A stretch of DNA of 64,000 bases from Synechococcus sp. RedBA-s (GTDB lineage: Bacteria > Cyanobacteriota > Cyanobacteriia > PCC-6307 > Cyanobiaceae), in contig NZ_JAGQBF010000010.1 of NCBI RefSeq assembly GCF_024345495.1, positions 1-64,000 of the forward strand, written 5' to 3'. A program made the translations under genes and the position numbers. The notes beneath the pieces were generated by a model. It was given only the letters and a program-made list of their open reading frames with translations. It was not told the DNA's origin and ran no database searches. Positions 21,968 through 37,739 of this stretch are shown here, in pieces; within the stretch, counting starts at the first letter, position 1, and each line of letters starts with the position of its first letter.

Positions 21968-22485
21968 GCCGCGGAAGTCGGTGCGCCCTCTTGCGTAGGC
22001 AAACAGCCGTCGCGCTTGCCGGCGTTGCAGCGGAAGCAGAGGGCCTGCAGGTTGCTGATGGCGTCAGAACCGCCATGGTTCCTGGGCACGATGTGGTCCA
22101 CCTCCAGGGCCCGTTGGTGCTCGTGGGCGCCGCAGCACTCGCAGCGGCCCCGGGCGCGGGTGAGCACCCGGTACTTCACCGAGCCGCTGATCGGGGTGCG
22201 GTGGCGGCTGCGGTGGGCAAACACCTCTTCGCCGCGCTGCTCGCGGAAGGCATCGAGGCGCTGGCGGCAGAGCTCCAGCAGCGCGTCGCGCTCGCCATCG
22301 CTCAACTCGTTGCCGTCGATCAGGCTGTCGTGGCCATCGCCATAGGTGGTGGTGCCGTTGAAGGTGAACCCGGCCCACCATGCGCTTCCCAGGATCCGCC
22401 GGGCCACGTCCTGCGCCGGGGCGGGGCTGCGGCGCCCCAGCAGCTCCATGAGCATGAGGGGTTGGTCGATGGGCCTCATGCGCAT
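21850..22485 (-). CDS. HNH endonuclease half of an HNH-HIT locus (frame-disrupted)
   Basis: From ATG 22485 the frame reads MRMRPIDQPLMLMELLG, then ELSDGERDALLELCRQRLDAFREQRG, and the HNH core RCECCGAHE, ALEVDHIVPRNHGG, ALCFRCNAGKRD. After KRD the frame is nonsense to its stop at 21850, while the HIT domain continues one frame away. Homology also extends upstream of the ATG (FLRLRQTIAERM, about 22486-22525) without a start codon, so the N-terminus is also damaged. It is probably a decaying nuclease. Related pieces occur near 25130-25370 and 26764-26832. Confidence 0.6.
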   Translation of the reverse strand: MRMRPIDQPLMLMELLGRRSPAPAQDVARRILGSAWWAGFTFNGTTTYGDGHDSLIDGNELSDGERDALLELCRQRLDAFREQRGEEVFAHRSRHRTPISGSVKYRVLTRARGRCECCGAHEHQRALEVDHIVPRNHGGSDAISNLQALCFRCNAGKRDGCLPTQEGAPTSAACRPATATAKRAVCSARWRAAAGCCWRTSWRSASPTPFS

Positions 22486-22721
22486 GCGCTCGGCGATGGT
22501 CTGCCGCAGGCGAAGGAAGGCAGCACAGGGGCTGCAGCCAACCTGGTTCCAGGTGTGGCTGTGCCGCCCCAGTCTCCGACCCGTGCTCTCGTCCGTGGCG
22601 TGGAAAAGGGCCCGTCGTTGTGAGGGTGGACGGCAGGCAGACGGGAGAGAACCGGGATCCAACAACCTGTCCCGAGGACGGGGGCTTTCTGATTCGGAGA
22701 TGCCCCAGAGCGCCGAAAAGG

Positions 22722-23219: not shown

Positions 23220-23427
23220 GCGCAGTGCTGTGACTTCTATCCAGAAGGATGAGGCCGCTGAGGGGTTGGCGGCCATAGGGTGTCGGTGGCGGCTGCCGGG
23301 CGACCGGGCCAGGTTTGGGTTTGGGCGGCCCGTCTGGCCACTGCCCCTGCTGTGATCCCTTCTGGCGTGGGGGTGCTGCGGCTGCAGCCCACCCACCACT
23401 GTCAGACTGGTGCCACTGGAGGGCGCT

Positions 23428-24898: not shown

Positions 24899-25123
24899 GT
24901 GGGCTCCACCCCCGTCCTCAAGTCCTCTGAGGTGGCGGACATCCTTCGAAAGCTGGGCTTCGATGTGGTTCGTCAACGCGGCTTCCATCTGCAGTTTCTT
25001 GATCCTCGAGGACGCTGCACCACAGTTCCAGTCCACAAGGGACGTGATCTTTCTCCCCCGCTGCTTCGTCAGATCGCCAAGGACATTGGCATGACCCTGG
25101 AGGAGTTCCTCAGCCACCGCTGA
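24899..25123 (+). CDS. hicA: HicA-type mRNA interferase toxin (second copy)
   Basis: A 74-aa HicA toxin starting at GTG. It shows SSEVADILRKLGFDVVRQRGFHLQF, then TTVPVHKGRDLSPPLLRQIAKDIGMTLEEFL. The usual GSH motif is GFH here: the active-site His is kept but the preceding Ser is replaced by Phe, which could alter activity. Spacing to hicB is tight. Confidence 0.85.
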   Translation: MGSTPVLKSSEVADILRKLGFDVVRQRGFHLQFLDPRGRCTTVPVHKGRDLSPPLLRQIAKDIGMTLEEFLSHR

Positions 25124-25375
25124 GCACCGAATCGGTAGCGAGGCGCTGGCGGCACTGCTGCAGCAGCTCGTCGCGTAGTGGCTCCGCCACGCTGGCCTTC
25201 GGCCAGGTACCGCCGTCGTTCAGCTCGCCGTTGCCGGGCAGCCTCTTGCCAGGCAACACCGTGGCCGAGCAGTTCCATGAGCATCAAGGGCTGGTAGATG
25301 TGGCTTTTGCGCATGCGTTCGGCGAGGTACTCGCGCAGGCGCTCGTACGCTGCAGCCGGGTATTCCCTACCAGAC
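25124..25375 (-). pseudogene. HNH-HIT locus fragment (N-terminal part)
   Basis: Minus-strand translation gives AAYERLREYLAERMRKSHIYQPLMLMELLGHG. A one-frame change then leads to ELNDGGTWPKASVAEPL and LLQQCRQRLATD. This matches the N-terminal portion of the HNH protein at 21850-22525 (FLRLRQTIAERM, DQPLMLMELLG, ELCRQRL) with an internal deletion. The HNH core and HIT domain are missing. Confidence 0.6.
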
Positions 25376-25565
25376 CCTGATCAGCAGTGACCTTCACAAA
25401 TACGTGAGTGGCAGGCTGCTGGATCGAGCCTGAGCATGTGGAGCTTGAGGGTTGCGGGCGGGTCCAGAAGGCTGCCGCCAAGCCGGCTCCGGGCGTGGGT
25501 GGGTCGCCCCAGTCCTCTCCATCCACTGCCGCTGGGGCCATAGCCTCGGCAGCTCTGGGTGGGCC

Positions 25566-26585
25566 TCACTCCAGGTCGTTGATCAGCACGATGCGGTAGC
25601 GGGCTTTGCCGGCACGGAGGTGATCGAGGGCTTCATTCACCTTCGACAGGGGGAAGAACTCCGTGGTGGGCGATATGCCATGGCGGCAGCTGAAGTGCAG
25701 CATTTTGTCGGTGGTGGACGGGCTGCCGAGGGGCGACCCGGAGAGGCTTTTCTGCCCGAGAATCAGCGGGAAAGCGGCCAAGGCAATCGGCTCGGGAACG
25801 GCCCCCACGGTGTGCAGCCGGCCCTTGGGTTTGAGGGCGGCGATGTAGGTGTTCCAGTCGAGGTTGGCGTTGGTGGTGTTGAGGATGAAGTCGAAGCTGC
25901 TGGCCGCCCCGGCCAATTCTTCGGCGTTGCGGGAGTTCAAGGTGCGATGGGCGCCGAGTTGGAGCGCTTCCTCCCGCTTCGAGTCGCTGGTGGTGAAGGC
26001 GGTGACGTCGCATCCCCAGGCCCTTAGAAACTTCAGGGCCATGTGACCGAGGCCGCCGATGCCGATGACCGCCACGCTGTCGGTGGGTTGGATGCCCAAT
26101 TCCACAATCGGGTTGAACACGGTGATCCCACCGCAGAGCAGGGGGCCAGCTTTTTTGTCGTCGAGGCCTTCCGGCAGGGGGGCCACCCAGGTCCAGTCGG
26201 CCCGCACCCGCGTGGCGAAGCCACCGTGTCGACCAACAATGGTGGCTTCGGCCTTGAGGCAGAGGTTCTGGTTGCCGGAGAGGCATTGGTCGCAGGCACC
26301 GCAACTGCCTGAAAACCAGCCCAGCCCCACCCGGTCGCCGATGCTCAGCCGCTTCGTGTGCTCCCCGAGGGCAACCACCCGCCCGATCACTTCGTGGCCG
26401 GGAACAAACGGATAGGTGGTCGTACTCCACTCGTTGTCGAGCATGGAGAGATCGCTATGGCAGATGCCGCAGCTCTCAACGGCGATCTCCACCTCTTCGC
26501 TGCCGAGCGGGCCGGGGGTGTAGGTAAAGGGTTGGAGCGGTTGCCCGGCGCCGTGGGCGGCGAGGGCCTGGATCGGTGCGGTCAT
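25566..26585 (-). CDS. Zinc-dependent alcohol dehydrogenase / aldehyde reductase (CAD/AdhC-like)
   Basis: A 339-aa medium-chain dehydrogenase. Catalytic zinc ligands are in SCGICHSDLSM (Cys38 region) and VPGHEVIG. The structural zinc lobe is GSCGACDQCLSGNQNLC. The Rossmann motif is AVIGIGGLGHMALKF. The pattern fits the NADPH-preferring aldehyde reductase group (YahK/CAD-like), which reduces aldehydes to alcohols. The gene is complete, standing between TA fragments and apparently unrelated to them. Confidence 0.85.
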   Translation of the reverse strand: MTAPIQALAAHGAGQPLQPFTYTPGPLGSEEVEIAVESCGICHSDLSMLDNEWSTTTYPFVPGHEVIGRVVALGEHTKRLSIGDRVGLGWFSGSCGACDQCLSGNQNLCLKAEATIVGRHGGFATRVRADWTWVAPLPEGLDDKKAGPLLCGGITVFNPIVELGIQPTDSVAVIGIGGLGHMALKFLRAWGCDVTAFTTSDSKREEALQLGAHRTLNSRNAEELAGAASSFDFILNTTNANLDWNTYIAALKPKGRLHTVGAVPEPIALAAFPLILGQKSLSGSPLGSPSTTDKMLHFSCRHGISPTTEFFPLSKVNEALDHLRAGKARYRIVLINDLE

Positions 26586-26763
26586 GGAATCTGCGGGCTT
26601 GGGATGGATCTGGTGATCTCAACGAATGGCTGGCCGTTCCCATGGATGGGCCGGCTCCGATGCCTGCAGGAGGTTGACCTTGCCGATCGGATGGCCCTAT
26701 CGATCCTAGGCAAAGCGGTTCAGCCCATGACCGCACCGCCATGACTCCCGTGCCGGTGCCCGC

Positions 26764-26832
26764 CCCCAAATCCGAGGCTGCTCGCAATCGCCCTCACGCC
26801 TCGGAATCGAGTGCCAATGGGCAGGAAACACT
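26764..26832 (-). pseudogene. HIT-domain fragment
   Basis: Minus-strand translation reads VFPAHWHSIPRREGDCEQPRIW. This matches the C-terminal HIT block at 21600-21670 (VFHAHWHLIPRRAGDCEQPRGG) with the first triad His changed to Pro. No rest of the gene is seen. Confidence 0.6.
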
Positions 26833-27003
26833 GACTCCTCCGAATGCTCGTCTGAGTGGAGCCCCGTCTCCTCGGGATCCAACCGGAGTGTGAGGGGGAT
26901 CAGCCTGGGGTGGTTGGTCCTTCCCAGATCTCTTGAGCCAGACAACTTCGGCGCAGCTCCTGCCAATGGGTCGATGCCGTTCGCTCGCTGCTTAGGTCAT
27001 CGA

Positions 27004-27387
27004 GTGAGTCCCCACCGCGCCGTCCAAGGCTGGGTACTCGATCGCGGCGATGTGATCTGGATCGACCACAACCCCCAGGCTGGCCGCGAAATGTGGGATC
27101 ACCACCCTTTTGCGGTGCTGTCCACCGCTGCCTTCCAGTCCACCGTGGGCCTGATGGTGGGCTGGGCGATGACCTCAGCTCCCTACAACCGTGGTTCCAC
27201 CCTGGCCGTGGATCTGGGCCCCATCCCCGATCGGCCGGGTGCCCACAGCTATGTGCTCTGCCAGCAACTCAAATCCTTCGACTGGCGCGCCAGGGGCGCA
27301 CGCCCACATCCGATCGGGCGACTGAACGAGTCGCAACTGGAAGAGGTGATGGCAATTGTGGGGCAGATCCTTGGCTTGGTGGACTGA
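27004..27387 (+). CDS. MazF/PemK-like toxin, apparently without antitoxin
   Basis: A 127-aa MazF-fold protein: VLDRGDVIWIDHNPQAGREMWDHHPFAVLS, then VGWAMTSAPYNRG and YVLCQQLKSFDWRARGA, ending in a helix ESQLEEVMAIVGQIL. GTG 27004 is the likely start. MazE-type antitoxin genes normally overlap this start. Here the frame ending at the overlapping TGA is closed by a TAG only three codons upstream, and no antitoxin is visible in the preceding 200 bp. It is an orphan toxin or a silenced relic. Confidence 0.75.
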   Translation: MSPHRAVQGWVLDRGDVIWIDHNPQAGREMWDHHPFAVLSTAAFQSTVGLMVGWAMTSAPYNRGSTLAVDLGPIPDRPGAHSYVLCQQLKSFDWRARGARPHPIGRLNESQLEEVMAIVGQILGLVD

Positions 27388-27431
27388 GCCAGCGTTCGCC
27401 CAGACAGGGGCAGCATCCTGCCCACCACGGC

Positions 27432-27570
27432 TTCGTGGTCGAGGAAGCAGAGGATGGCTCCTACCGGGCCAGCGCAGCTGCCGCCGCGATCCACACCGAG
27501 GCCGACACCCTTGAGGAGCTCCACCGGGAGATCACAGGCGCTGTCGTCTGCCACTTCGATCCCGGGCAGC
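27432..27570 (+). pseudogene. HicB antitoxin fragment, near-copy of the gene at 23428
   Basis: Translation gives FVVEEAEDGSYRASAAAAAI, HTEADTLEELHREI and VVCHFDPGQ, closely matching HicB at 23428-23634 in both protein and DNA. The start codon and first strand are missing, and the frame changes at 27571 into a fragment of an unrelated gene. Confidence 0.7.
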
Positions 27571-27700
27571 CTGGTGGAACTGATGGCGCTCAACGAGCAG
27601 GTGGAACGGGAGGTGTTCGCCCTGGCCCCCAGCAACCGCCGCGTCGCCGACGCCACGCTGGGGATGCTGCTGGCCGACTGGCCCGCCGCCCCTGCTGCAG
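27571..27700 (+). pseudogene. DUF2236 (MpaB-like) gene fragment
   Basis: Translation gives LVELMALNEQVEREVFALAP, SNRRVADATLGMLL and ADWPA. This matches LAALMAFNHSFELEAFRSAPSNRRIAESTLAMLLDDWPA in the DUF2236-CoaE fusion protein at 55685-57151. It follows the HicB fragment directly. Confidence 0.65.
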
Positions 27701-27863
27701 CACCTCAACCAGCCCAGTCGTTCAGGCCTGCCTGCCGATGACGGTGCTGACGCCACCGGATCCGCAGCGGCTCCTGACTGATCATCCCCGCACAGGCCCT
27801 CGGCAAGCGGCGCCCGATCAGCCGCCTGAGACAATCCACAACCGCCGACCCAGAGGGACAGTC

Positions 27864-28388
27864 ATGGCCGTTCTCGGCAGAGTGGCGATCCTGCAGGCGA
27901 TCCAGGAGGGCTGGATCGCGATCACGCCCTTCGATCCCGAGCGGGTGGGGCCCGCCTCCGTCGACCTCACCCTCGCCCCCACCGTTCGCGTGTTCCGCAA
28001 GGTGCACCAGGTGATCAACGTTCAGGAGAACACCGACTACCGGGAGCTCACCGAGAAGGTCCGGGTGCCCGAGGGCGATCACATCCTGATCATGCCCGGT
28101 GAGACCGTTCTGGGCATCACCCGCGAGCGCCTGCGCCTCGGGCCTGGTCTGTGCGGCTGGCTGGAGGGTCGCAGCCGTTTCGCGCGCCTGGGTCTGATGG
28201 TGCACATCAGCGCCCCGTTCATGGGGCCGGGGATCGACAGCCAGCAGGTGCTGGAGATGAGCAACTTCGGCCCCGCTGCCCTGGCGGTGCATCCCGGCAC
28301 CGCGATCTGCCAGTTCGTGTTCCAGAAGCTGGAGGGCAGCGAGAGCTACGCCGGCCGCTTCGCCGGCCAGACGGAAGACTCCTTCTGA
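27864..28388 (+). CDS. dcd: dCTP deaminase (dUTPase fold)
   Basis: A 174-aa trimeric dUTPase-fold protein that deaminates dCTP to dUTP for dTMP synthesis. It shows GPASVDLTLAPTVRVFR, the PGETVLG strand, EGRSRFARLGLMVHISAPFMGPGID, the catalytic-Glu segment VLEMSNFGP and a flexible C-terminal tail ending AGRFAGQTEDSF. ATG 27864 is the start; the longer open frame upstream runs through TA fossils. It is a housekeeping gene lying inside the TA-rich region. Confidence 0.85.
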   Translation: MAVLGRVAILQAIQEGWIAITPFDPERVGPASVDLTLAPTVRVFRKVHQVINVQENTDYRELTEKVRVPEGDHILIMPGETVLGITRERLRLGPGLCGWLEGRSRFARLGLMVHISAPFMGPGIDSQQVLEMSNFGPAALAVHPGTAICQFVFQKLEGSESYAGRFAGQTEDSF

Positions 28389-28418
28389 GCATTCCCAGCA
28401 CCCGCAAGGGCTGATCGC

Positions 28419-28802
28419 TCAGGAGGTCATCACCTCCACAGGACAGCGCAGGCCAGGTGCCCGGGCAGCACGGCTGTCGCCGGTGAGGAGTGTGGCTCCC
28501 AGCTCTTCGGCCAGGGCCACGTAGAGGGCGTCGTAGGCCGTGAGGTTGGCGCGCAGCTCCCAGGCCCGTGGCCAGAGGTGGCGGCTGACATGACGGCGCA
28601 GGCCAAGCCGTTGGGCCGTGGTCAGGGCCTGCAGCGCGTGCTGTTCAGGAAGCTGATCGGCCAGCACCAGCCGGCGCAGCACCGAGAGCAGCTCGGCATC
28701 GATCAGATCAGGCGCCTGGAGGTTGGCTTCGGCCAGCCTGGCCCTGGCTGCGCCCTGGATCAATAGCGCATCCACCAGCACCGAGGCATCCACCACCACC
28801 AT
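28419..28802 (-). CDS. VapC-type PIN toxin
   Basis: A 127-aa PIN-domain ribonuclease toxin. All acidic positions are visible: VVVDASVLVDALL, DLIDAELLSVLRR, ANLTAYDALYVALAEELGATLLTGDSRAA. It overlaps the antitoxin stop by one base at 28802. It looks intact and serves as an internal reference for the deleted PIN protein at 6392. Confidence 0.85.
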   Translation of the reverse strand: MVVVDASVLVDALLIQGAARARLAEANLQAPDLIDAELLSVLRRLVLADQLPEQHALQALTTAQRLGLRRHVSRHLWPRAWELRANLTAYDALYVALAEELGATLLTGDSRAARAPGLRCPVEVMTS

Positions 28803-29026
28803 CAGCGTTCTGCCCGGATCTGCCGCAGTGCCTCCAGAGTCGTGCCGTGGTCGATCGGAGCCGATGGCAAGGCATTGAGGAGGTCTGCGTTGTCGGCCCG
28901 GCGAGCGGTTTCGCTGAGTTCGCGCAGGGCGAAGGTGCTCAGAGGCAGCCCAGCGCGGTTGGCCAATGTTTCGAGTCGCTCGGCCACGTCGTCGGGAACG
29001 TGGCGGATGTAGAGGGTGCGCGTCAT
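28802..29026 (-). CDS. VapB-type antitoxin
   Basis: A 74-aa CopG/Arc-like antitoxin. MTRTLYIRHVPDDVAERLETLANRAGLPLSTFALRELSE is the DNA-binding part and a short C-terminal toxin-binding tail follows. ATG 29026 is chosen over the much longer open frame because the family starts exactly at this TRTLYIR strand. It is the partner of the PIN toxin downstream. Confidence 0.85.
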   Translation of the reverse strand: MTRTLYIRHVPDDVAERLETLANRAGLPLSTFALRELSETARRADNADLLNALPSAPIDHGTTLEALRQIRAER

Positions 29027-29129
29027 CCCTGCAGGCTGCTTGCTCGCTGCTAGCAGCCTAGCGGCTGATGGTTCGCTGCCTGCTGTTCGATCAACGTCTC
29101 GGCTCTGTCGCATCAGGCTGTGCGATCCA

Positions 29130-29359
29130 GGCAGAGGTCTTCGGGTTCGTTCGTCGTCGTAGCAGGAGCCGCAGGCTTCTCCGCAGGAGTGCAGACGCAC
29201 ATCGGCAGCAGGGATCAGCTGGCGAATGACGGCAACCATTTCTATGGCCAGCAGATCTTCCTGGAAGATCTGCTGGGTCGTCATGTGGAACTGGTGACCG
29301 AGAAGGCGTTGCGGGAGGAGTTTCGGCACCGAGTCGAGGCCGATGCCATCATCATCTGA
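29130..29359 (+). pseudogene. MntA-type nucleotidyltransferase antitoxin remnant
   Basis: The last third is clear: FLEDLLGRHVELVTEKALREEFRHRVEADAI, the conserved C-terminus of MNT-domain antitoxins. The catalytic GSF and DVD region upstream is scrambled by at least one frameshift, since GSFV appears but no Asp pair follows. A HEPN remnant follows, so this was an MntA/HepT TA pair. Confidence 0.6.
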
Positions 29360-29389
29360 AGTGATGGCCGAATGAGTCTGGCACCTGTA

Positions 29390-29645
29390 TTTGAAAGACA
29401 TGCGGGTCTTTGCAGAGAGAGCGATTCTCTACAGCGATGGATTGACCCGAGCTCGGTTTGAAGCCAGCCAACTGGTTCAAGCCGCCATTCTGCGCAACAT
29501 CGAACTGACCGGAGAAGCAGCAGCTCGTGTGTCACAGATGCGTTTCGACTGGCGAATCCAGAGATTGCGTGGAGAGAGTTTGTTGCCATGCGCAATCAAT
29601 CAATCAATCAATTCATGGCTATCTTGGCATTGATCTTGACATTGT
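29390..29645 (+). pseudogene. HepT-type HEPN toxin remnant with CAAT repeat in the active site
   Basis: Three successive frames rebuild a HEPN protein: VFAERAILYSDGLTRARFEA and LRNIELTGEAAAR, then VTDAFRLANPEIAWREFVAMRN, then SIHGYLGIDLDIV. Breaks lie near 29527 and inside a run of CAAT units at 29593-29612, exactly at the catalytic R-x4-H motif (RNxxIH). After DIV the sequence passes without a stop into a different gene fragment. Confidence 0.65.
29593..29612 (+). repeat. (CAAT)5 microsatellite
   Basis: Five perfect tandem CAAT units sit within the HEPN remnant. Three or six units would bring the preceding AMRN frame into register with IHGYLGIDL. Confidence 0.9.
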
Positions 29646-30030
29646 CCGCGCCTTCGCGCTGGACTCCAAGGGCATCGTCTGGGTGGCCAACAACATGGAC
29701 GGCAATGACGTTGTGTGGATCGGCAACATGTGGGGCCGCTCCGCAGCGCTGCTGGCCGGCGACAACACCAAGGGACATCCCCCCGGCACCAAGGCCGGTG
29801 ATGTGATCCACATCTTCCAGAGCGGCAACATCCAGATGGTTGCCGGCGTGTCGATCGACCCCGCCGGTAACGCCTGGGTTGCCAACAACTGGAATAGTCT
29901 TGAGGCGGCATCCTCCCCTAATCCATCCCGCCCCACCTCGACGTGGGGCGGCGGCTATGGCTTTACCGCTATTTATGGTGTGGCCGCTCCGGTGAAGCCG
30001 CCACGCATCGGCAAGGTGCAGCCTTATTGA
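29646..30030 (+). pseudogene. C-terminal fragment of an NHL/streptogramin-lyase-like repeat protein
   Basis: Translation reads AFALDSKGIVWVANNMDGND, then GDVIHIFQSGNIQMVAGVSIDPAGNAWVANNWN, ending PPRIGKVQPY. The repeated D-x-x-G-xx-WVANN pattern is that of beta-propeller NHL or Vgb-type proteins. Only about 1.5 blades are present and there is no independent start, so this is a truncated gene fused to the HEPN remnant. Confidence 0.6.
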
Positions 30031-30062
30031 ACCGGCAATCGCGCTGACATTCGCCCGTGAAA

Positions 30063-30092
30063 CGCGGGCCGTTCCCCAGGAGGCGGCCCGCG
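30063..30092 (+). terminator. Perfect 9-bp hairpin downstream of the propeller fragment
   Basis: CGCGGGCCG (30063-30071) pairs with CGGCCCGCG (30084-30092) across a 12-nt loop, 33 bp after the fragment's stop. No T-run follows, so termination is plausible but unproven. Confidence 0.5.
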
Positions 30093-30129
30093 ACTTACGA
30101 GCGAGGAGATGAAGTGAACGTTAATCGCC

Positions 30130-30187
30130 AGCTAACAATCGGTTGCAGCGGTCGGCACTTCGTCGCCGCTGAAACGGAGCGTTGGCT
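30130..30187 (+). other. attC-like integron recombination site
   Basis: A 58-bp imperfect palindrome. It opens with AGCTAAC (R''-like, near RYYYAAC) and closes with GTTGGCT (R'-like, near GTTRRRY). Inside, CGGTTGCAGCGG (30140-30151) pairs with CCGCTGAAACGG (30167-30178), leaving unpaired spacers between outer and inner boxes and a short apical loop around ACTTCG. This is the architecture of attC sites. No integrase gene is in the window. Confidence 0.5.
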
Positions 30188-30384
30188 GGCTTCAGGTGTT
30201 CTGTTTGGAAAGTGCTTCTAGGCTAACTGCCGTGCCCAGTAGGATTTTCGTGGTAAGCTTACTTCCCCCATCAGCAAGAGTCGTTGCAATGTTTATCGTG
30301 ATTTAAGCATCTACGGCTTTATGCCCTCTTTCTCAACGGGCTGTTGAGACATCTAGATCCAATTCCAAAGACATTTCATTTATC
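30188..30384. other. AT-richer leader between attC-like site and sulfatase
   Basis: About 200 bp of markedly lower GC than the host. No ORF is recognised. It may hold the sulfatase promoter, but no convincing -35/-10 pair could be fixed. Confidence 0.35.
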
Positions 30385-31947
30385 ATGGCAAAACCAAAAC
30401 CAACACAAAAACAACCAAACATTCTCTTCATCATGGGAGATGATGTTGGAATGTGGAACATTGGAGCATACCATCGTGGCCTTATGGCCGGGAGGACTCC
30501 AAACATTGACAAAGTAGCCTTAGAAGGAGCTATTTTCACTGATTATTATGCAGAAGCAAGCTGCACAGCAGGCAGGTCTTCATTCATTACAGGAGAATTG
30601 CCTATCCGTACAGGTCTTACTACAGTCGGTCAAGCAGGAGCTAGTGTTGGCATGCCAGCACAGGCGCCCACGATTGCAACAGCTTTGAAGGAATTGGGTT
30701 ACGCAACAGGGCAATTCGGCAAGAATCATCTTGGAGATAAAAACGAATTCTTGCCTACTTTGCATGGGTTTGACGAATACTTTGGGTATCTTTATCATCT
30801 CGATGCAATGGAAGATCCGTTCCATCCGAATTATCCACCTGAATTAAAAGACACAATTGGTCCGAGGAATGTTTTGCATACCTGGGCAACTGATAAAGAT
30901 GATCCTACAGTCGATCCGAGATGGGGAAAAGTCGGCAAGCAGAAGATAGAAGACAAGGGACAACTGCCTCCCCATCCTATTGATGGCATCGAATTGAATA
31001 TGGAAACAGTTGATGATGTAATTCTTGAGCATACCAACAATTTCATCGATAAATCTGTCAAAGCAGGTAAGCCATTTTTTGCATGGCTTAACCCAACAGG
31101 CATGCATGTCTTCACTCATCTTCCTAAAAAATATAGTGATCTGATGACACCTGAGAATGGATGGTGTTTGCAGGAAGCGGGAATGGCACGGTTTGACGAT
31201 GTAATCGGAGGCGTGCTGAACAAGCTTGATGAATTGGGTGTGGCAGACAATACCATCGTTGTTGTTACTACAGACAATGGAACACAAACGTTCTCTTGGC
31301 CAGACGGAGGAACCACCCCATTTAAAGGTTCCAAGGGAATGGGAACCGAGGGAGGGTTCAGATCACCTTGTATCCTCAAATGGCCGGGTAAAGTTCAACC
31401 CAACCAGGTGATCAACGGTGTGATATCAGGCATGGACTGGTTCCCCACATTTGTTACAGCAGCAGGACATCCAAATATCGCGGAAGAACTCAAGGCAGGA
31501 AAGTCACTGAATGGAAAAGAGTATAAGGTTCATTTGGATGGTTATGACCAAACTGACATGTTAACCAAAGGAGGTGATTCTGCACGAAATGAATTTTGGT
31601 ACTTCACTGAAACCGAACTTGCGGCCGCAAGAATCAAAGACTTTAAATATACATTCATATCCCAGCCAGATGGTTGGTTCGGCCCTAAAGTTAAATTAGA
31701 CTGGCCCGGCCTCGTCAATTTGCGACTCGATCCGTTTGAAAAAATGAGCCTGGGAGATTCCTTGTATGCAGGGAACTGGTGGGCATTTGAGTTCTGGAGA
31801 TATGTTTTTATTCAACAGGAAGTTGAAAAGCTGGCCAAAACTGCTTTGGAGTTTCCTCCTATGCAGCCTGCGGCTACGTTTAATCTTGATGCTGTGAAGC
31901 AACAGGTGCAAAAAGCGATGGCAAGCCGGGGAAGCACTGGTAATTAG
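30385..31947 (+). CDS. Arylsulfatase, low-GC, probably acquired
   Basis: A 520-aa type I sulfatase that hydrolyses sulfate esters. The N-terminal metal site is ILFIMGDDVGMWN. The formylglycine motif ASCTAGRSSFITG (Cys near residue 58) is of the CxAxR kind, unlike the CSPTR of the other two sulfatases here. FGKNHLGD and VVVTTDNGTQ supply further metal and sulfate contacts. There is no signal peptide, so it is predicted cytoplasmic. Base composition is near 45% GC against well over 60% around it, strong evidence of transfer. It lies about 200 bp after an attC-like site. Confidence 0.85.
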   Translation: MAKPKPTQKQPNILFIMGDDVGMWNIGAYHRGLMAGRTPNIDKVALEGAIFTDYYAEASCTAGRSSFITGELPIRTGLTTVGQAGASVGMPAQAPTIATALKELGYATGQFGKNHLGDKNEFLPTLHGFDEYFGYLYHLDAMEDPFHPNYPPELKDTIGPRNVLHTWATDKDDPTVDPRWGKVGKQKIEDKGQLPPHPIDGIELNMETVDDVILEHTNNFIDKSVKAGKPFFAWLNPTGMHVFTHLPKKYSDLMTPENGWCLQEAGMARFDDVIGGVLNKLDELGVADNTIVVVTTDNGTQTFSWPDGGTTPFKGSKGMGTEGGFRSPCILKWPGKVQPNQVINGVISGMDWFPTFVTAAGHPNIAEELKAGKSLNGKEYKVHLDGYDQTDMLTKGGDSARNEFWYFTETELAAARIKDFKYTFISQPDGWFGPKVKLDWPGLVNLRLDPFEKMSLGDSLYAGNWWAFEFWRYVFIQQEVEKLAKTALEFPPMQPAATFNLDAVKQQVQKAMASRGSTGN

Positions 31948-31984
31948 CGAATATAGGCAAAAAGATTTATTCTTTGAACGAAGC

Positions 31985-32016
31985 AGGAGTGGCCCATTCC
32001 CTATGGTGCCACTCCT
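31985..32016 (+). terminator. Hairpin downstream of the low-GC sulfatase
   Basis: AGGAGTGGC (31985-31993) pairs with GCCACTCCT (32008-32016) around a 14-nt loop, 37 bp after the stop. It lacks a clear T-run. Confidence 0.45.
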
Positions 32017-32097
32017 CAGCCTAAGGCTATATCTGTGACGGGTCACCGTGATCTGTAAAACATGCCTCTATCGGCTGGCTGAGTCCATCGTCCTAGT

Positions 32098-32230
32098 CGA
32101 TTGGGCGAATCACCATTCGCCCATTGTTCCAGCTGATCTTGCTACCTTTCTTGACCCACGTGTCTAGGAATCGCCAGCCTGCCCGATGTTGGTAGACCTC
32201 AGCTAGGGGTCGATGGCCTTCAGCTGGGCA
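32098..32230 (-). other. Short minus-strand coding-like fragment
   Basis: Minus translation ends EVYQHRAGWRFLDTWVKKGS followed by KISWNNGRMVIRPID and a stop. It looks like the C-terminus of a real protein but has no start, and it overlaps the end of the DUF1400 hydrolase in another frame. Family unknown. Confidence 0.35.
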
Positions 32231-33843
32231 GGAGGGAGTTCACGTTTGAGCAGAAACTGAAGGGGTTGACCCACTCGGAACAGAGCATCCTGCGAGGGCA
32301 GAAGCGCGCCCATCGTTCCTTGTCCCAGCAGTTTCTGGTCAAAAAAGGCCAACGACAGGGCCTTGAGATCACTCTGAGCCTGTTGCTGATCAGGGCCAAT
32401 CAAGCCAATCAGCCAGACAGGAAGCTTGCCGGTAGCAGCAAGGAAAGACAGGTGGGTGGCATTGTCGAAGACGGCCAGCAGACTGTCGTTGTTGCTCAAG
32501 CTGCTGTAGGGGATGAGCTGCTGGGAAATGGGCGGAGCAAAGATATCTTTGGTTCCTGAGACAATCATCACGGGGGCCTTCATGGCCTGCATCGAAGCCT
32601 TTGTGAAGGTGGGGGTGCTGACGGGGTTCACAGCAATCACTACTTTGATGCGTGGATCGGAGAAATCCGAACGTTTCACCACATTCCCTGGAGCCTGGCA
32701 CTGCCAAAGGATGGCAGGATTGATTTCCACCTCAGCAGGATCGTTGATCACTGCGCAGGAACGTTCCAGATGCGCCCAGTCGAGGCGGGCACCACCAAGC
32801 GCCAGCACGGTATAACCACCGAGTGACTGGCCAAGCGCTCCGACGCGGCTCGTATCGATCTGCTTGGGCCATCGACTGGCGACCTGATCGATCAGAAGGC
32901 TGACATCCAGAGGCTGGTTGAACCAGGCATTCGGAGGCGGGATCGCGGCCAGACCCTGGATCGTGGCGCTCACTCGGTTGGCACTGGTGTCAGGGAAGTT
33001 GAGAGCGGCCACCCCGTAGCCGCGGGACGCCAGGTGCTCGCCCAGGTAAAGCAGGGCGTTGAAGTCGGTGTTCAGGCCTGGGGCCAGCACGATCAGGGGC
33101 GCAGGTGGAGCCGAGGCTGATCCGGCCGGAGGGTTGGCGCTGCTGGGAACCAGGGCAATGGCCTTGATGGTGTTTCCGGCTGGCCCCTGGAAGCTGAAGC
33201 CCTCACGACTGAAAGAACTGTTGCCTGGTTGTGCAAGTTGGTCCAGAGCCGTGCTGGGAATCTGGCTCTTCGGCCCCTGGGCTACCAGGCGGGGGAAGAT
33301 GTCTCCTTCCAGTTCAAACTGATCACTGAGCCGACGGGCCAGGTTCATCACCTTCGGCACGCCGATGATCAGATTCTCCAGCGGATACTGTTGCAACACA
33401 TCGATCAGCCTCAGGCCATCACTTCGATTGGCGCCGAGAATCAGGGCCCCCGAAAGGGCGGGCACAACTTCGTTCTTGGGACCATCAACGAGCTTGGCGA
33501 ACTGGCGCACCAGCACTCCCCCCATGGCCGTCTGCAAAAAGTCCGACACCTCCAGGCTGGTGACCGGAAAGGCACGACCCAAGCCGAAACGCAAGGCCAG
33601 ACGATCCTCCTTGCTGAGGGGATCGAGGATGAACGCCACGTTCTCGCTGACCTTGCCGGTGCTCACAAAGCTGGCCAGATCGGCAACAGGCACCGAGCGT
33701 TGCAGCTCACCGATGCGGAACACCACTCTTTCCGCAGCTTGCAAGGGTGGCGTCGCCAACTGAACCAGCAGGCCGGCGAGAATGGATGTCACCCACCTGA
33801 AGCCTTTGATCCTTTGCTGATCTTGCATGGTGAGGGCAGGCAT
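32203..33843 (-). CDS. Alpha/beta hydrolase with N-terminal DUF1400 domain
   Basis: A 546-aa secreted hydrolase of a type typical for cyanobacteria. A signal-like segment (residues 15-36) precedes the DUF1400 domain (VVFRIGELQRSVPVADLASFVSTG). The alpha/beta-hydrolase core has the nucleophile elbow GALGQSLGGY, an acid in VSGTKDIFAPP and a catalytic His near DNATHLSFL. Substrate is unknown; dienelactone-hydrolase or lipase-like esters are possible. It abuts marC directly, so the two may be co-transcribed. Confidence 0.8.
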   Translation of the reverse strand: MPALTMQDQQRIKGFRWVTSILAGLLVQLATPPLQAAERVVFRIGELQRSVPVADLASFVSTGKVSENVAFILDPLSKEDRLALRFGLGRAFPVTSLEVSDFLQTAMGGVLVRQFAKLVDGPKNEVVPALSGALILGANRSDGLRLIDVLQQYPLENLIIGVPKVMNLARRLSDQFELEGDIFPRLVAQGPKSQIPSTALDQLAQPGNSSFSREGFSFQGPAGNTIKAIALVPSSANPPAGSASAPPAPLIVLAPGLNTDFNALLYLGEHLASRGYGVAALNFPDTSANRVSATIQGLAAIPPPNAWFNQPLDVSLLIDQVASRWPKQIDTSRVGALGQSLGGYTVLALGGARLDWAHLERSCAVINDPAEVEINPAILWQCQAPGNVVKRSDFSDPRIKVVIAVNPVSTPTFTKASMQAMKAPVMIVSGTKDIFAPPISQQLIPYSSLSNNDSLLAVFDNATHLSFLAATGKLPVWLIGLIGPDQQQAQSDLKALSLAFFDQKLLGQGTMGALLPSQDALFRVGQPLQFLLKRELPPAQLKAIDP

Positions 33844-34509
33844 CTAGGGCGTTGTCATGAACATGGAAGACGAACTCTTCAGGCCATTGAGCACCATCTG
33901 TGAGGCGATCGCCGCGACGAGCAGGCCCATGATCTGGGTGGAGATCTGAGTTCCCGATGGGCCCATGAGTCTGCCGAGGACCGGGGAATACCAGAACACC
34001 AGGGCCATCATTGTGGCCATGGCCACACTGGCTATCGAGAGCGCCACCAGTCCCTGCACGCCCGCTTGATTGGAATGGGCCGCCACCAGCAAGGCCGTGA
34101 TCACTCCAGGCCCTGCTGAAATCGGGATGGCCAATGGCACCACCGCCGGCGATGCCTTTTCGCGACCCACCTCGATGTTGTTCTGGTTGGACTCCTCCTT
34201 CGGAGAAGCGCCAGATTTACTGTTCAACATGCCAAGACCGATGCCGAACAGGATGACACCGCCGGCGATCGAAAATGCCCCGATGCTGATGCCGATGCCG
34301 CCGAGAATGGCCTTGCCCAGCCAGAGAGAGGTGAGCATGATGACCCCAATCGCCACGGCCGCCTGAATGCCGATGCTCTTCTGCTCCGCCCGGCTGCGGC
34401 CCTGGGTGAGGGCCAGGAACAGGGCGAAATCAGCCAGTGGATTCAGTAACGCCACCATGGAGGTGACGAAGTGGACCATCAAGTGGTGGGGAATGACAGG
34501 AGCGGACAT
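33844..34509 (-). CDS. MarC family integral membrane protein
   Basis: A 221-aa protein with about six hydrophobic segments and the MarC opening LNPLADFALFLALTQGRS, plus AIPISAGPGVITALLVAAH. MarC-family transport function is not established. It lies one base upstream of the DUF1400 hydrolase start on the same strand. Confidence 0.85.
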   Translation of the reverse strand: MSAPVIPHHLMVHFVTSMVALLNPLADFALFLALTQGRSRAEQKSIGIQAAVAIGVIMLTSLWLGKAILGGIGISIGAFSIAGGVILFGIGLGMLNSKSGASPKEESNQNNIEVGREKASPAVVPLAIPISAGPGVITALLVAAHSNQAGVQGLVALSIASVAMATMMALVFWYSPVLGRLMGPSGTQISTQIMGLLVAAIASQMVLNGLKSSSSMFMTTP

Positions 34510-34554
34510 GTGAGGAGGTCGGCTTAATAAACCCTATGGAGTTAGTCAGTCTGC

Positions 34555-34932
34555 TTAGTCTTTGTTCTCGGCTATTGACAGCCGTGCAAACACTATTGAA
34601 AGGATCAGATGAAGCACGAACACAGGCCAGAGCAGGACTCCAGTCCAAAGGCCGCCAAGGCCAATGGTCAAGAGATAAAGTGTCACCGCTGCATTGTAGA
34701 TCAACCAACCGATCAGCGGTTTGCCAAGCCAGCAGGTGATCCCAAATGAAGTCAAGACAATGCCAGCGAAGCGGACGACGATGGTGTCATCGCCGGAAAG
34801 AACTCCTCCAAACAACAGCTGGAAGACCAAGGAAGGGGCCAGCAAAAAGGCCAGCCCGGTGAACGTCTCACCAGCACTCACGGCGGCAAGCCATCGCTGT
34901 GCCTTTTGGCTCAGCACCACTTTGTCATTCAT
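34555..34932 (-). CDS. Small membrane protein of unknown function
   Basis: A 125-aa protein with four predicted membrane helices (around AGETFTGLAFLLAPSLVF, IVVRFAGIVLTSFGITCWLG, LIYNAAVTLYLLTIGLG and LLWPVFVLHLILSIVFA). It has no recognised catalytic motif. It lies between marC and the large sulfatase, all on the minus strand. Confidence 0.65.
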   Translation of the reverse strand: MNDKVVLSQKAQRWLAAVSAGETFTGLAFLLAPSLVFQLLFGGVLSGDDTIVVRFAGIVLTSFGITCWLGKPLIGWLIYNAAVTLYLLTIGLGGLWTGVLLWPVFVLHLILSIVFARLSIAENKD

Positions 34933-34973
34933 GTCTCTGACCGGGACGAAGAACGTGTGTCATGGTTTGGGCC

Positions 34974-37739
34974 TCAGGCCTTATCGGGAGCATCTGGCTC
35001 CAGTTTGAACGTCAGTTTGTTGATGGTTCCGTTGAACTTGAAGGGAACCTCGTAGCGATTTTCCAGCAGCGCCACACCCGTGCGCGTGTCCTCGCCGATG
35101 TCAAAGGTTTCGTCCTCCGGGAAGGTGATCGGTGTGCTGTTTTCCATGGATTTCTTCGCCACTTCCTTGCCATCCACGGAGAGAACACCCGACCCGCCCT
35201 TGCCCAGGCCTGGTTCAGCAGGCTTGAAGCTGAAGCTGATGGTGTGCTTGCCGGCGGACAAGGTAGGACCCTCCCAGGTCGTTCGCTTGAGATTGAGCAG
35301 GTTGTAGAGGAAGACGGGCCTGGAAGCACCAAGATTCAACACCAACGTGGCCACGACGGCAAGGGCCCACAACGCTCCCAGCAGCAGCAATCCATAGCCA
35401 ATCCTGAGCTTATTGCCTTTCCAGGCTTGGCGATTGCCAATCCAGATCAGCACAAGACCGGCGATGAGCAGCGCCAGGCCCATGGCCTTGAACCAGCCGT
35501 TTTCAAACCAATAGTTGAAGTTTCTGCTCAGGAACAGCCCATAGCCACCGAAGCGTCCGCCTTGGGTGACAATCATGCCCTCGCCGCCACCCTTGGGAAT
35601 CTCGATGTCCGCTGTGATGGTGTACGACTTGTTGAGAATGCTCGGTGCTGCGCTGCCTGGCACGTTGGCCAACGGACCGGAGTAGCTGAACTCCGTGCGC
35701 CCTGCCGTGAGGCTCGGCTTCGGTGAATTCCAACGGGAAAGGGAGGTGTTATCGAGCGGCAGCACGTTGTACTTTGCCGCCTCCAGGTAGAAGAGGTTCT
35801 GCAACTGCGTCAGCTTCTCTGGCATTTTTGCCGCCAGATCGTTGTTCTCGGTGGGATCCTCCATGACGTTGTAGAGCTCCCACTTGTAGCCGGTGATCAC
35901 ATCCGGCGGTTCCTTCGAGCTCAGCTCCCACGGCAGCGTCGCCGGAGTGGTCGCCGCAACCCAGCCGTCGTGATAGATGGCACGGTTACCCAGCATCTCG
36001 AAGTACTGCGTCGTGTGCCGGGTCGGAGCCGTGGCATTCCCCTTGCTCCAGGTGTAGGCCATGCTCGTGCCTTCGATGGGCTTTTGCTCGATCCCATTGA
36101 TGGTTTGCGGTGCCGGAATGCCTGCCGCCTCCAGAATAGTTGGCACGATGTCGATGACATGGTGGAACTGGCGGCGGATCCCCCCTGGGTCGTCGATGTG
36201 ACCCGGCCAGGAGATGGTCAGCCCCTGGGCCGTGCCGCCGAAGTGCGAAGCCACCTGCTTCATCCACTTGAACGGCGTGTCCATCGCCCAGGCCCAGGGT
36301 GCCGCAAAGTGCGGGAAGGTGCGGTCCGATCCCCAGAACGGAAACCAGAGGAACTGGTCTTTGACGGGCACTTGAACGCCATTGAAGGTGGTGAACTCAT
36401 TGGGCGTGCCGTTGAGCATGCCTTCGGCGCTGGCACCGTTATCGCCACTCATGTAGATGATCAGGGTGTTGTCGATCTCACCAAGATCTTCGACGGCCTG
36501 GATCACGCGACCGATCTCATGATCGGTGTAGGCCTGATAGGCCCCATAGACATCCGCCTGCCGGATGAAGAGTTTTTTCTGCGGGCCACTGAGGGAGTCC
36601 CAGCGGGGCAGCTTCGCACCTCCATAGATCGCCTGTCCATCGGGCCAGGGGGTGAGTTGGGCGTTCTCGGGCATGATGCCGAGTTTTTTCTGATTGGCGA
36701 AGATGGTCTCCCGCAGTTTTTCCCAGCCCTCGTCGAAGAGGTGCTGCTCGCTGATCTTGTCGACCCATTCCTGGGTGGGATGGTGGGGGGCGTGCACTCC
36801 GCCCGGCACGTAATACACCAGGAAGGGCTTTTCGGGAGCCAGTTCCTTGAGCTGCCTCATGTGCTGGATCGCCTCATCCGCCATGGCGGTGGTGAGATTC
36901 CAGCCAGGATTGTTCTGGAACGGGAAGATGGGTGTGGTGTTTCTGAAGAGATTTGGCTGCCACTGACTGGCGTCGCCGCCGACGAAGCCATAAAAATGTT
37001 CGAAGCCCATCCCCGTGGGCCACTGGTCGAAGGGGCCGGCCTGACTGTTCTCGAAGAAGGGCGTGTTGTGGTCCTTGCCGAACCAGGCGGTCGAGTAGCC
37101 GTTGTCCCTCAGGATCGTGCCGATGGTTCCCTTCTCAATCGGGATGATCGAGTCATAACCGGGGAACCCAGTGGCGATTTCACCCACCACTCCGAAACCT
37201 GCAGAGTGATGGTTGCGTCCGGTGATCAGGGCCGCCCGTGTCGGCGAGCAGAGCGATGTGGAGTGAAAATTGGTGTAGCGCAACCCGCTCTTGGCGATGC
37301 GATCCAGGGCTGGGGTCGGGATCACCCCTCCGAAGGTGCTTGGCGAGCCATAGCCGTCGTCGTCGGACATGATCAGCAGCACGTTCGGCGCTTTCTTCGG
37401 CGGCACCACGCGCGGCGGCCACCAAGACTTCGATTCGGTGGCTCGTTGCTTGATCACCCCGCCGAACTTCGGATCCGGAGGTGGCAGTTGTCGGCCGCTG
37501 ATGGTGGTGGTGGCATTGGCGGAACCCAACACCCCCGTCACCTCGATGCCCCCCCCATCGGCCTTCGGATCGGATGGCGCCGGTTGCTGTTCACCACGAC
37601 TGGTGGCGGCGGCGAAAGCGGGGGCAACCAAGGCCCCTGGGACGACGACCAGAAGGATGGCCAGGGCGGCGGCGACAACAGCCTTATGCCAACCCGTCCG
37701 TAGCCTGCGGACCAGGAACATCCCAGGTTCTGGGTTCAT
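34974..37739 (-). CDS. Exported arylsulfatase with two-helix membrane insertion
   Basis: A 921-aa sulfatase. A signal or anchor segment lies at about 17-45. The catalytic domain has NVLLIMSDDDGYG, the formylglycine motif SLCSPTRAALITGR (Cys near 165), WFGKDHNTP and YMSGDNGAS. The C-terminal beta-sandwich module begins after about residue 680. Between GGRFGGYGLFLSRN and RPVFLYNLLNLKR it carries about 65 extra residues with two hydrophobic segments (ALLIAGLVLIWIG and GLLLLGALWALAVVATLVL). The paralog at 43340 is continuous at this point. The enzyme may thus be anchored by its C-terminal domain. Confidence 0.9.
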   Translation of the reverse strand: MNPEPGMFLVRRLRTGWHKAVVAAALAILLVVVPGALVAPAFAAATSRGEQQPAPSDPKADGGGIEVTGVLGSANATTTISGRQLPPPDPKFGGVIKQRATESKSWWPPRVVPPKKAPNVLLIMSDDDGYGSPSTFGGVIPTPALDRIAKSGLRYTNFHSTSLCSPTRAALITGRNHHSAGFGVVGEIATGFPGYDSIIPIEKGTIGTILRDNGYSTAWFGKDHNTPFFENSQAGPFDQWPTGMGFEHFYGFVGGDASQWQPNLFRNTTPIFPFQNNPGWNLTTAMADEAIQHMRQLKELAPEKPFLVYYVPGGVHAPHHPTQEWVDKISEQHLFDEGWEKLRETIFANQKKLGIMPENAQLTPWPDGQAIYGGAKLPRWDSLSGPQKKLFIRQADVYGAYQAYTDHEIGRVIQAVEDLGEIDNTLIIYMSGDNGASAEGMLNGTPNEFTTFNGVQVPVKDQFLWFPFWGSDRTFPHFAAPWAWAMDTPFKWMKQVASHFGGTAQGLTISWPGHIDDPGGIRRQFHHVIDIVPTILEAAGIPAPQTINGIEQKPIEGTSMAYTWSKGNATAPTRHTTQYFEMLGNRAIYHDGWVAATTPATLPWELSSKEPPDVITGYKWELYNVMEDPTENNDLAAKMPEKLTQLQNLFYLEAAKYNVLPLDNTSLSRWNSPKPSLTAGRTEFSYSGPLANVPGSAAPSILNKSYTITADIEIPKGGGEGMIVTQGGRFGGYGLFLSRNFNYWFENGWFKAMGLALLIAGLVLIWIGNRQAWKGNKLRIGYGLLLLGALWALAVVATLVLNLGASRPVFLYNLLNLKRTTWEGPTLSAGKHTISFSFKPAEPGLGKGGSGVLSVDGKEVAKKSMENSTPITFPEDETFDIGEDTRTGVALLENRYEVPFKFNGTINKLTFKLEPDAPDKA

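Follow-up and report, generated by a model that had tools for sequence, protein, structure and literature searches.

The window analysed here, a stretch of 64,000 nucleotides from contig C2 in the draft assembly of Synechococcus sp. RedBA-s, carries at 30130-30187 a palindrome that, by its sequence and structure, is very probably a genuine attC site of an integron (probability about 0.93). The site most likely belongs to the truncated NHL/propeller-like gene upstream of it, with which it would form a decayed cassette. What goes beyond routine in this attC is its setting, namely the scattered lone attCs of such genomes and the pair of attCs that occupies the two junctions of a chromosomal inversion.

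Sequence and fold of the attC site

The preliminary description of this DNA had reported a 58-bp palindrome with AGCTAAC/GTTGGCT boxes, spacers and bulges in an attC layout, and an imperfect palindrome of this length and build is indeed read from the sequence (Table 1). The R'' box faces R' and the L'' arm faces L', each pair being complementary, with an extrahelical base (the extra G at 30145), unpaired spacers (AA and AGC) and one additional G x A mismatch in L. The outer stem is longer by three pairs (GCC/GGC) and the tip is short. According to a passage of one source, sequence conservation among attC sites is limited to the AAC and GTT triplets of R'' and R' (PMC3607928); the site has AAC at 30134-30136 and GTT at 30181-30183. 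Each of the two boxes shows one departure from RYYYAAC/GTTRRRY, and the two departures pair with each other.

Integron integrases use the bottom strand of attC sites, and an attC closes the cassette that lies upstream of it. The bottom strand is likewise the expected recombinogenic strand here, and the integrase cut is presumably placed between G30181 and T30182, as in known attC sites. When the bottom strand was folded with DNA parameters, a check that had been proposed, the expected hairpin resulted (z -2.67; 2 of 200 shuffled sequences folded as well). As RNA, the top strand also forms a hairpin (z -6.56; none of 200 shuffles as good).

Table 1. Features of the attC locus and of the two inversion junctions. 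Coordinates are those of the window unless a contig is named.
Feature	Position	Strand	Basis
Truncated NHL/propeller-like gene, 3' end, probable cassette gene	29695..30030	+	38-44% identity to C-termini of homologues in G012 and own contig C30
attC site, 58 bp (attC1)	30130..30187	+ (cassette orientation)	covariance models R1 and R2; bottom-strand fold
R'' box AGCTAAC	30130..30136	+	sequence; aligns to AAC of covariance model R1
L'' arm TCGGTT-G-CAGCGG, extrahelical G at 30145	30139..30151	+	sequence; R1 and R2 alignments
L' arm CCGCTG-AAACGG, one G x A mismatch against L''	30166..30177	+	sequence; R1 and R2 alignments
R' box GTTGGCT	30181..30187	+	sequence
Sulfatase-family gene, foreign by composition	30385..31947	+	Pfam Sulfatase, 6e-47
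Inversion junction J1: vapBC-like genes, gene fragment, attC, sulfatase	28391..32199 (C2)	.	colinearity map
Inversion junction J2, holding the second attC	C61 91371-97775		colinearity map
attC2	C61:91396-91482	-	lies in J2

Membership in the attC class

Two covariance models, both custom-made and distinct from that of IntegronFinder, were applied. The first, R1, derives from 51 sites, none of them the window site or a site in a cyanobacterial-titled record (48 from non-cyanobacterial bacteria, one from an 'uncultured bacterium' and two from viral contigs). Its input was 124 pattern matches, reduced to 71 by dropping 8 that were cyanobacterial or from the window, 38 for length, 4 without AAC, 2 whose boxes were poor and 1 duplicate; a further 20 were left out because their R'' start was doubtful or they belonged to another L class. 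The second, R2, was built from 26 hand-picked sites, mostly of about 87 bp (25 from the same genus and one from the same family), and omits at least three known sites (L040:8555-8614, L239:1898-1997 and L058:7956-8059).

Both models find the site, R1 at 59 bits (E 1.6e-13, filters off) and R2 at 44 bits (E 1.5e-10), the E-values being rough on account of a short calibration. A covariance-model search was the test proposed earlier, with the lack of a match named as evidence against an attC, and the outcome favours the attC. Over the 64-kb window R1 lists only one other match, the same palindrome on the opposite strand (15.6 bits), and no second convincing attC was found there by R1 or R2, the next best R2 match having 11.3 bits (E 0.63). 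Similarly, an unfiltered R2 search of 84,000 of the 86,375 bases of contig C2 yielded no other convincing attC (best 13.7 bits, E 0.04). The R1 score is lower for the window site than for the related sites in the same-genus genomes G004 (81.7 bits) and G005 (72.2 bits).

Pattern scans agree with the models. A rule-based attC finder gave 19 matches in 503,748 bases comprising the window and related loci, of which two, both in locus L051, look like chance; its sole match in the window is the site itself, and one Markov-shuffled control of the same sequences gave none. The box pattern occurs in 5 of 300 family genomes, the present one included, with zero in the reversed-pattern control columns. 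For example, G004 has a near-identical 60-bp attC some 2 kb away from an intact intI gene, and in G005 another attC matching the pattern is about 10 kb from intI. When one genome per species is considered, the pattern recurs in at least 116 stretches from Proteobacteria, Acidobacteria, Chloroflexi, Planctomycetes and others. The site resembles the 60-bp attC class TAACAACCGGTTGCAGCGG...CCGCTGAACCGGAGCGTT of bacterial integrons and cassettes in its box order, extrahelical G and L''/L' core; it differs in L-arm substitutions, in a shorter tip (hence 58 bp) and in its boxes, AGCTAAC and GTTGGCT as against GCCTAAC and GTTAGGC. A very short attC-like type, TTGCAGCGGACAAGCCGCTGAATGCGGCGTT, is common to many marine Gammaproteobacteria (L074, L080, L082, L086, L088 and others).

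A chance resemblance to an attC, in an ordinary transcription terminator or some other RNA hairpin, is very improbable: the top-strand RNA fold is strong and the hairpin lies about 100 nt past a stop codon, but the boxes match attC-class sites from many phyla at the E-value given by R1, Rfam has no match at E <=1 in 25000-37000, and the shuffled control argues against chance. An intrinsic terminator, the alternative that had been set against the attC at the outset, was rejected since the GC-rich stem is followed by no T-run and a terminator scan omits the hairpin.

The gene that the attC would close

The neighbours of the site are as they had been described, a truncated gene fragment on one side and a compositionally foreign sulfatase on the other. 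The fragment is an open reading frame at 29527-30030, whose homology to a gene on contig C30 of the same genome starts at approximately 29695, and its stop codon lies 99 nt before R'' in the same orientation as the attC. Longer homologues exist in genome G012 and on C30. The one on C30 (467-2668, 733 aa) is a full-length NHL paralogue that stands directly between attCs at 351-434 and 2721-2807, with gaps of only 32 and 52 nt. Hence, genes of the NHL family are truly carried as cassettes in this genome, and the window attC is found 3' of a same-orientation gene whose paralogue lies in a cassette. The fragment and its C30 sister share just 39-42% identity over the C-terminal ~115 residues, so the fragment represents a different cassette and not a copy of the one on C30. 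With the upstream gene truncated, the window attC has no complete cassette beside it. On these sequence comparisons the attC most likely belongs to the truncated gene, as the end of a decayed cassette.

The full-length homologue in G012 (locus L247) has no R2 match nearby, and the NHL gene gave no match among solved structures at E <=0.001. A search of plasmids with the upstream fragment and with the DNA of 30000-30400 found no match. A 31-residue peptide just before the attC was considered as the remnant of another cassette gene and set aside, there being no match to it in plasmids. Upstream of the truncated gene, a 29-base near-perfect palindrome occupies 29248-29276 (97% match to its own reverse complement), and a CAAT tetranucleotide repeat lies near 29593-29613.

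The sulfatase and the toxin-antitoxin genes

The sulfatase (520 aa) shares 66% identity with an arylsulfatase of a Bradyrhizobium plasmid and at most 49% with any match elsewhere in 101 family genomes, and its GC content is 0.45 as against 0.63 for the window. Change points in GC content fall at 30190 (range 30106-30253) and at 31982; the foreign block therefore starts at the R' end of the attC or close to it. A stable hairpin (approximately 31985-32017, fold z -3.2) without T-run or R boxes marks the right border of this low-GC block. The preliminary description had suggested that the sulfatase and the toxin-antitoxin (TA) modules are integron cargo. This suggestion is not supported, as no second attC was found in the window, neither beside the sulfatase nor near the TA genes (R1 and R2), and the orientation of the attC assigns it to the upstream gene fragment and not to the sulfatase. 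The TA island was accordingly rejected as cassette cargo. A decayed attC after the sulfatase was rejected as well, since 3' of the gene the models yield only noise at E <=5, and the sulfatase is not called a cassette for want of an attC behind it.

It is unlikely that the sulfatase represents the next cassette, inserted at the R' crossover of the window attC and later deprived of its own attC. In favour of this reading, no more than 10 nt lie between the crossover and the GC change point, the low-GC block stops shortly before the hairpin, the gene is foreign, and another sulfatase of this genome lies within an 8-kb stretch between two attCs on contig C56. Against this, the 3' end has no attC, the hairpin that follows lacks R boxes, the start codon is 197 nt from R', and the C56 stretch, with its several genes, does not form a simple cassette. 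On C56 (76386-86450, locus L233 6386-16450), attCs lie at 76386, 78118 and 86361 and a half attC at 77572 near a HicB-like frame; the genes of the 8-kb stretch, named by eye except for the sulfatase, are DUF1254-like, formylglycine-generating-enzyme-like, sulfatase and phosphatase-like. Some pieces of the TA-rich part of the window, between 22000 and 27600, are about 80-600 bases long (e.g., 22254-22531, 23244-23394, 25233-25355 and 27432-27565) and recur often in same-genus genomes, both around TA genes and next to dcd.

Integron integrase and attCs in the genome and its relatives

The genome encodes a full-length integron integrase on contig C45 (80089-81024; profile TIGR02249, 461.9 bits against a cut-off of 265). 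Besides it there are broken intI fragments (C19:136-654, C50:8837-9118, C59:34025-34234 and others on C6 and C10), so that six matches in all lie on contigs other than that of the window attC; a profile search found no intI match on C2, and hence no intI adjacent to an attC array at the window site. R2 gives 29 attC matches in the genome (E <=0.01), with groups of attCs beside the full-length intI on C45 and on C50, C59 and C30; five control genomes in which no intI is known gave none (four had no intI match in the search of the same genus and controls, and the fifth, G122, is outside the family-wide intI matches). The absence of an integrase and of other attCs from the genome, which had been named as a sign against the attC, is thus contradicted by both searches.

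The integrase family profile matches all 14 control genomes at E <=0.001, for which reason only counts at the curated cut-off or at E 1e-40 are used. At the cut-off, intI is present in all nine same-genus genomes (the match in G003 being partial) and in 43 of 201 family genomes, or 49 of 201 at E 1e-40. R1 attCs were found in 34 of 201 family genomes, 31 of them among the 49 with intI (Fisher p ~2e-20, assuming that the same 201 genomes were drawn for both counts); the other three (G067, G089 and G136) have no intI at E 1e-40. R1 is an imperfect marker, since 18 intI-positive genomes have no R1 match; under stricter filters it missed G006 and G008, in which R2 gives 6 and 10 attCs among the matches listed. 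These counts contradict, for this group, the earlier statement that integrons are not a usual feature of picocyanobacteria.

The presence of integrons in Synechococcus was already known before this analysis. Cyanobacteria are listed as an integron-bearing phylum for which an attC model was built, in the relevant passages of three papers (PMC8618304, PMC2426708, PMC8352920), and Synechococcus sp. intI appears in trees or figures of two others (PMC3108266, PMC3607928). A literature search by title found no paper on the integrons of picocyanobacteria. With its resident intI and attC arrays the genome resembles those with chromosomal integrons in Cyanobacteria and Synechococcus, whereas the window attC stands outside the arrays, on a contig where no intI was found.

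Proposed origin of the lone attC

The window attC is most likely the surviving 3' end of an integron cassette whose lipoprotein-like NHL/propeller gene has lost its 5' part. By analogy with known sites, IntI would bind its bottom strand, folded as a hairpin with extrahelical bases, and would cut it at the R' box. Its arrival at a spot without an adjacent integrase might be due to an off-target cassette insertion, or the site might be what is left of an array after rearrangement. The sulfatase on its right is probably DNA acquired separately, which abuts the R' end. Cassette insertion into genomes through attG sites is described by Loot et al. (2024), as cited in sections of PMC12901181 and PMC12444791.

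In IntegronFinder terms the site is like a CALIN or single attC without integrase, no intI being nearby, with the difference that a single attC puts it below the default CALIN threshold of two; no convincing second attC was found in the window or in C2 64001-84000. The IntegronFinder authors note in a passage of their paper that a single attC may be a true positive that is not reported by default (PMC9024848). Nine single-contig genomes of the family contain at least 83 attCs in 48 clusters, 26 of which are single and have no intI within 12 kb among the matches listed. The clustering limits of 6 kb and 12 kb are our own choice, and the count of 26 may be too high where weak neighbouring attCs or weak intI fragments are absent from those matches. 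Lone attCs look usual in these genomes.

An inversion with an attC in both junctions

A mapping of 175 kb of contig C8 of the same-genus genome G005 onto the present draft assembly indicates an inversion of approximately 127 kb. The piece at 737.8-864.8 kb of G005 C8 maps in reverse onto contig C61 and then C2, some pieces being out of order (e.g., 765.9-766.8 and 855.7-856.3 kb), and from 867.5 kb onward it maps to C61 from 97775 onward; the flanks thus lie on C2 and C61 as an inversion predicts. In the relatives, dcd (window 27680-28390) is followed by the segment that lies on C61 in this genome. This old order on the dcd side is found in G003, G004, G005, G006 and G007, while in G001 the parts are on different contigs and G002 and G008 have no dcd match; on the other side the old order is seen in G005 and G007 only.

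The attC described above (attC1) and the second one (attC2) are inverted with respect to each other, and their R' ends face the inverted segment. The change in composition at J1 coincides with R' of attC1, and at J2 the sequence stops being homologous to G007 some 25 nt from R' of attC2. R2 found no attC at the corresponding loci in G005 and G007 (both sides) or in G004 (dcd side). The chance of both junctions holding an attC is ~4e-4 by a rough, post hoc hand estimate that spreads ~11 attC loci evenly over 2.7 Mb and ignores hot spots. Exact inverted repeats between the two junctions do not exceed 13 nt, and the best inexact one is 26 nt at 81% (E 1); homologous recombination through a long inverted repeat was rejected for this reason.

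An inversion made by the resident integrase through attC1 and attC2 as an inverted pair is possible and, in our judgement, quite unlikely. The G005 map, the attC in each junction together with its absence by R2 from the relatives' loci, the changes in composition and homology next to the R' ends and the lack of a longer repeat all point towards it. On the other hand, the pairing of R'' with R' inside each attC as it now stands is better than that of the combinations an exchange would imply, the outer stem of the window attC having three further pairs, and a reciprocal attC exchange is disfavoured by this pairing. A published test, as summarised in part of the source, found no clear rise in recombination with inverted attC pairs and read eight rare inversions as illegitimate (PMC4792948). 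Moreover, as both loci vary, breakpoints and cassettes may share hot spots, and the ancestral order is seen in only part of the genus and the present order comes from a draft assembly. The wider view, in which the integron acts on the whole chromosome by placing cassettes at two distant loci whose attCs then form an inverted pair and recombine to flip the ~127 kb, is distinctly improbable.

Significance

Integrons are a regular part of one picocyanobacterial group, and the lone attCs that appear scattered in its genomes make off-target cassette insertion testable in natural genomes. A literature search by title found nothing on attCs at the ends of natural chromosomal inversions. If the inversion was indeed made by the integrase, it would be a natural case of the rare outcome of recombination between inverted attCs, for which the laboratory test showed no clear integrase effect. 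With the attC pair in the junctions, the question of whether chromosomes are rearranged by integrases beyond their arrays can be asked of a concrete case.
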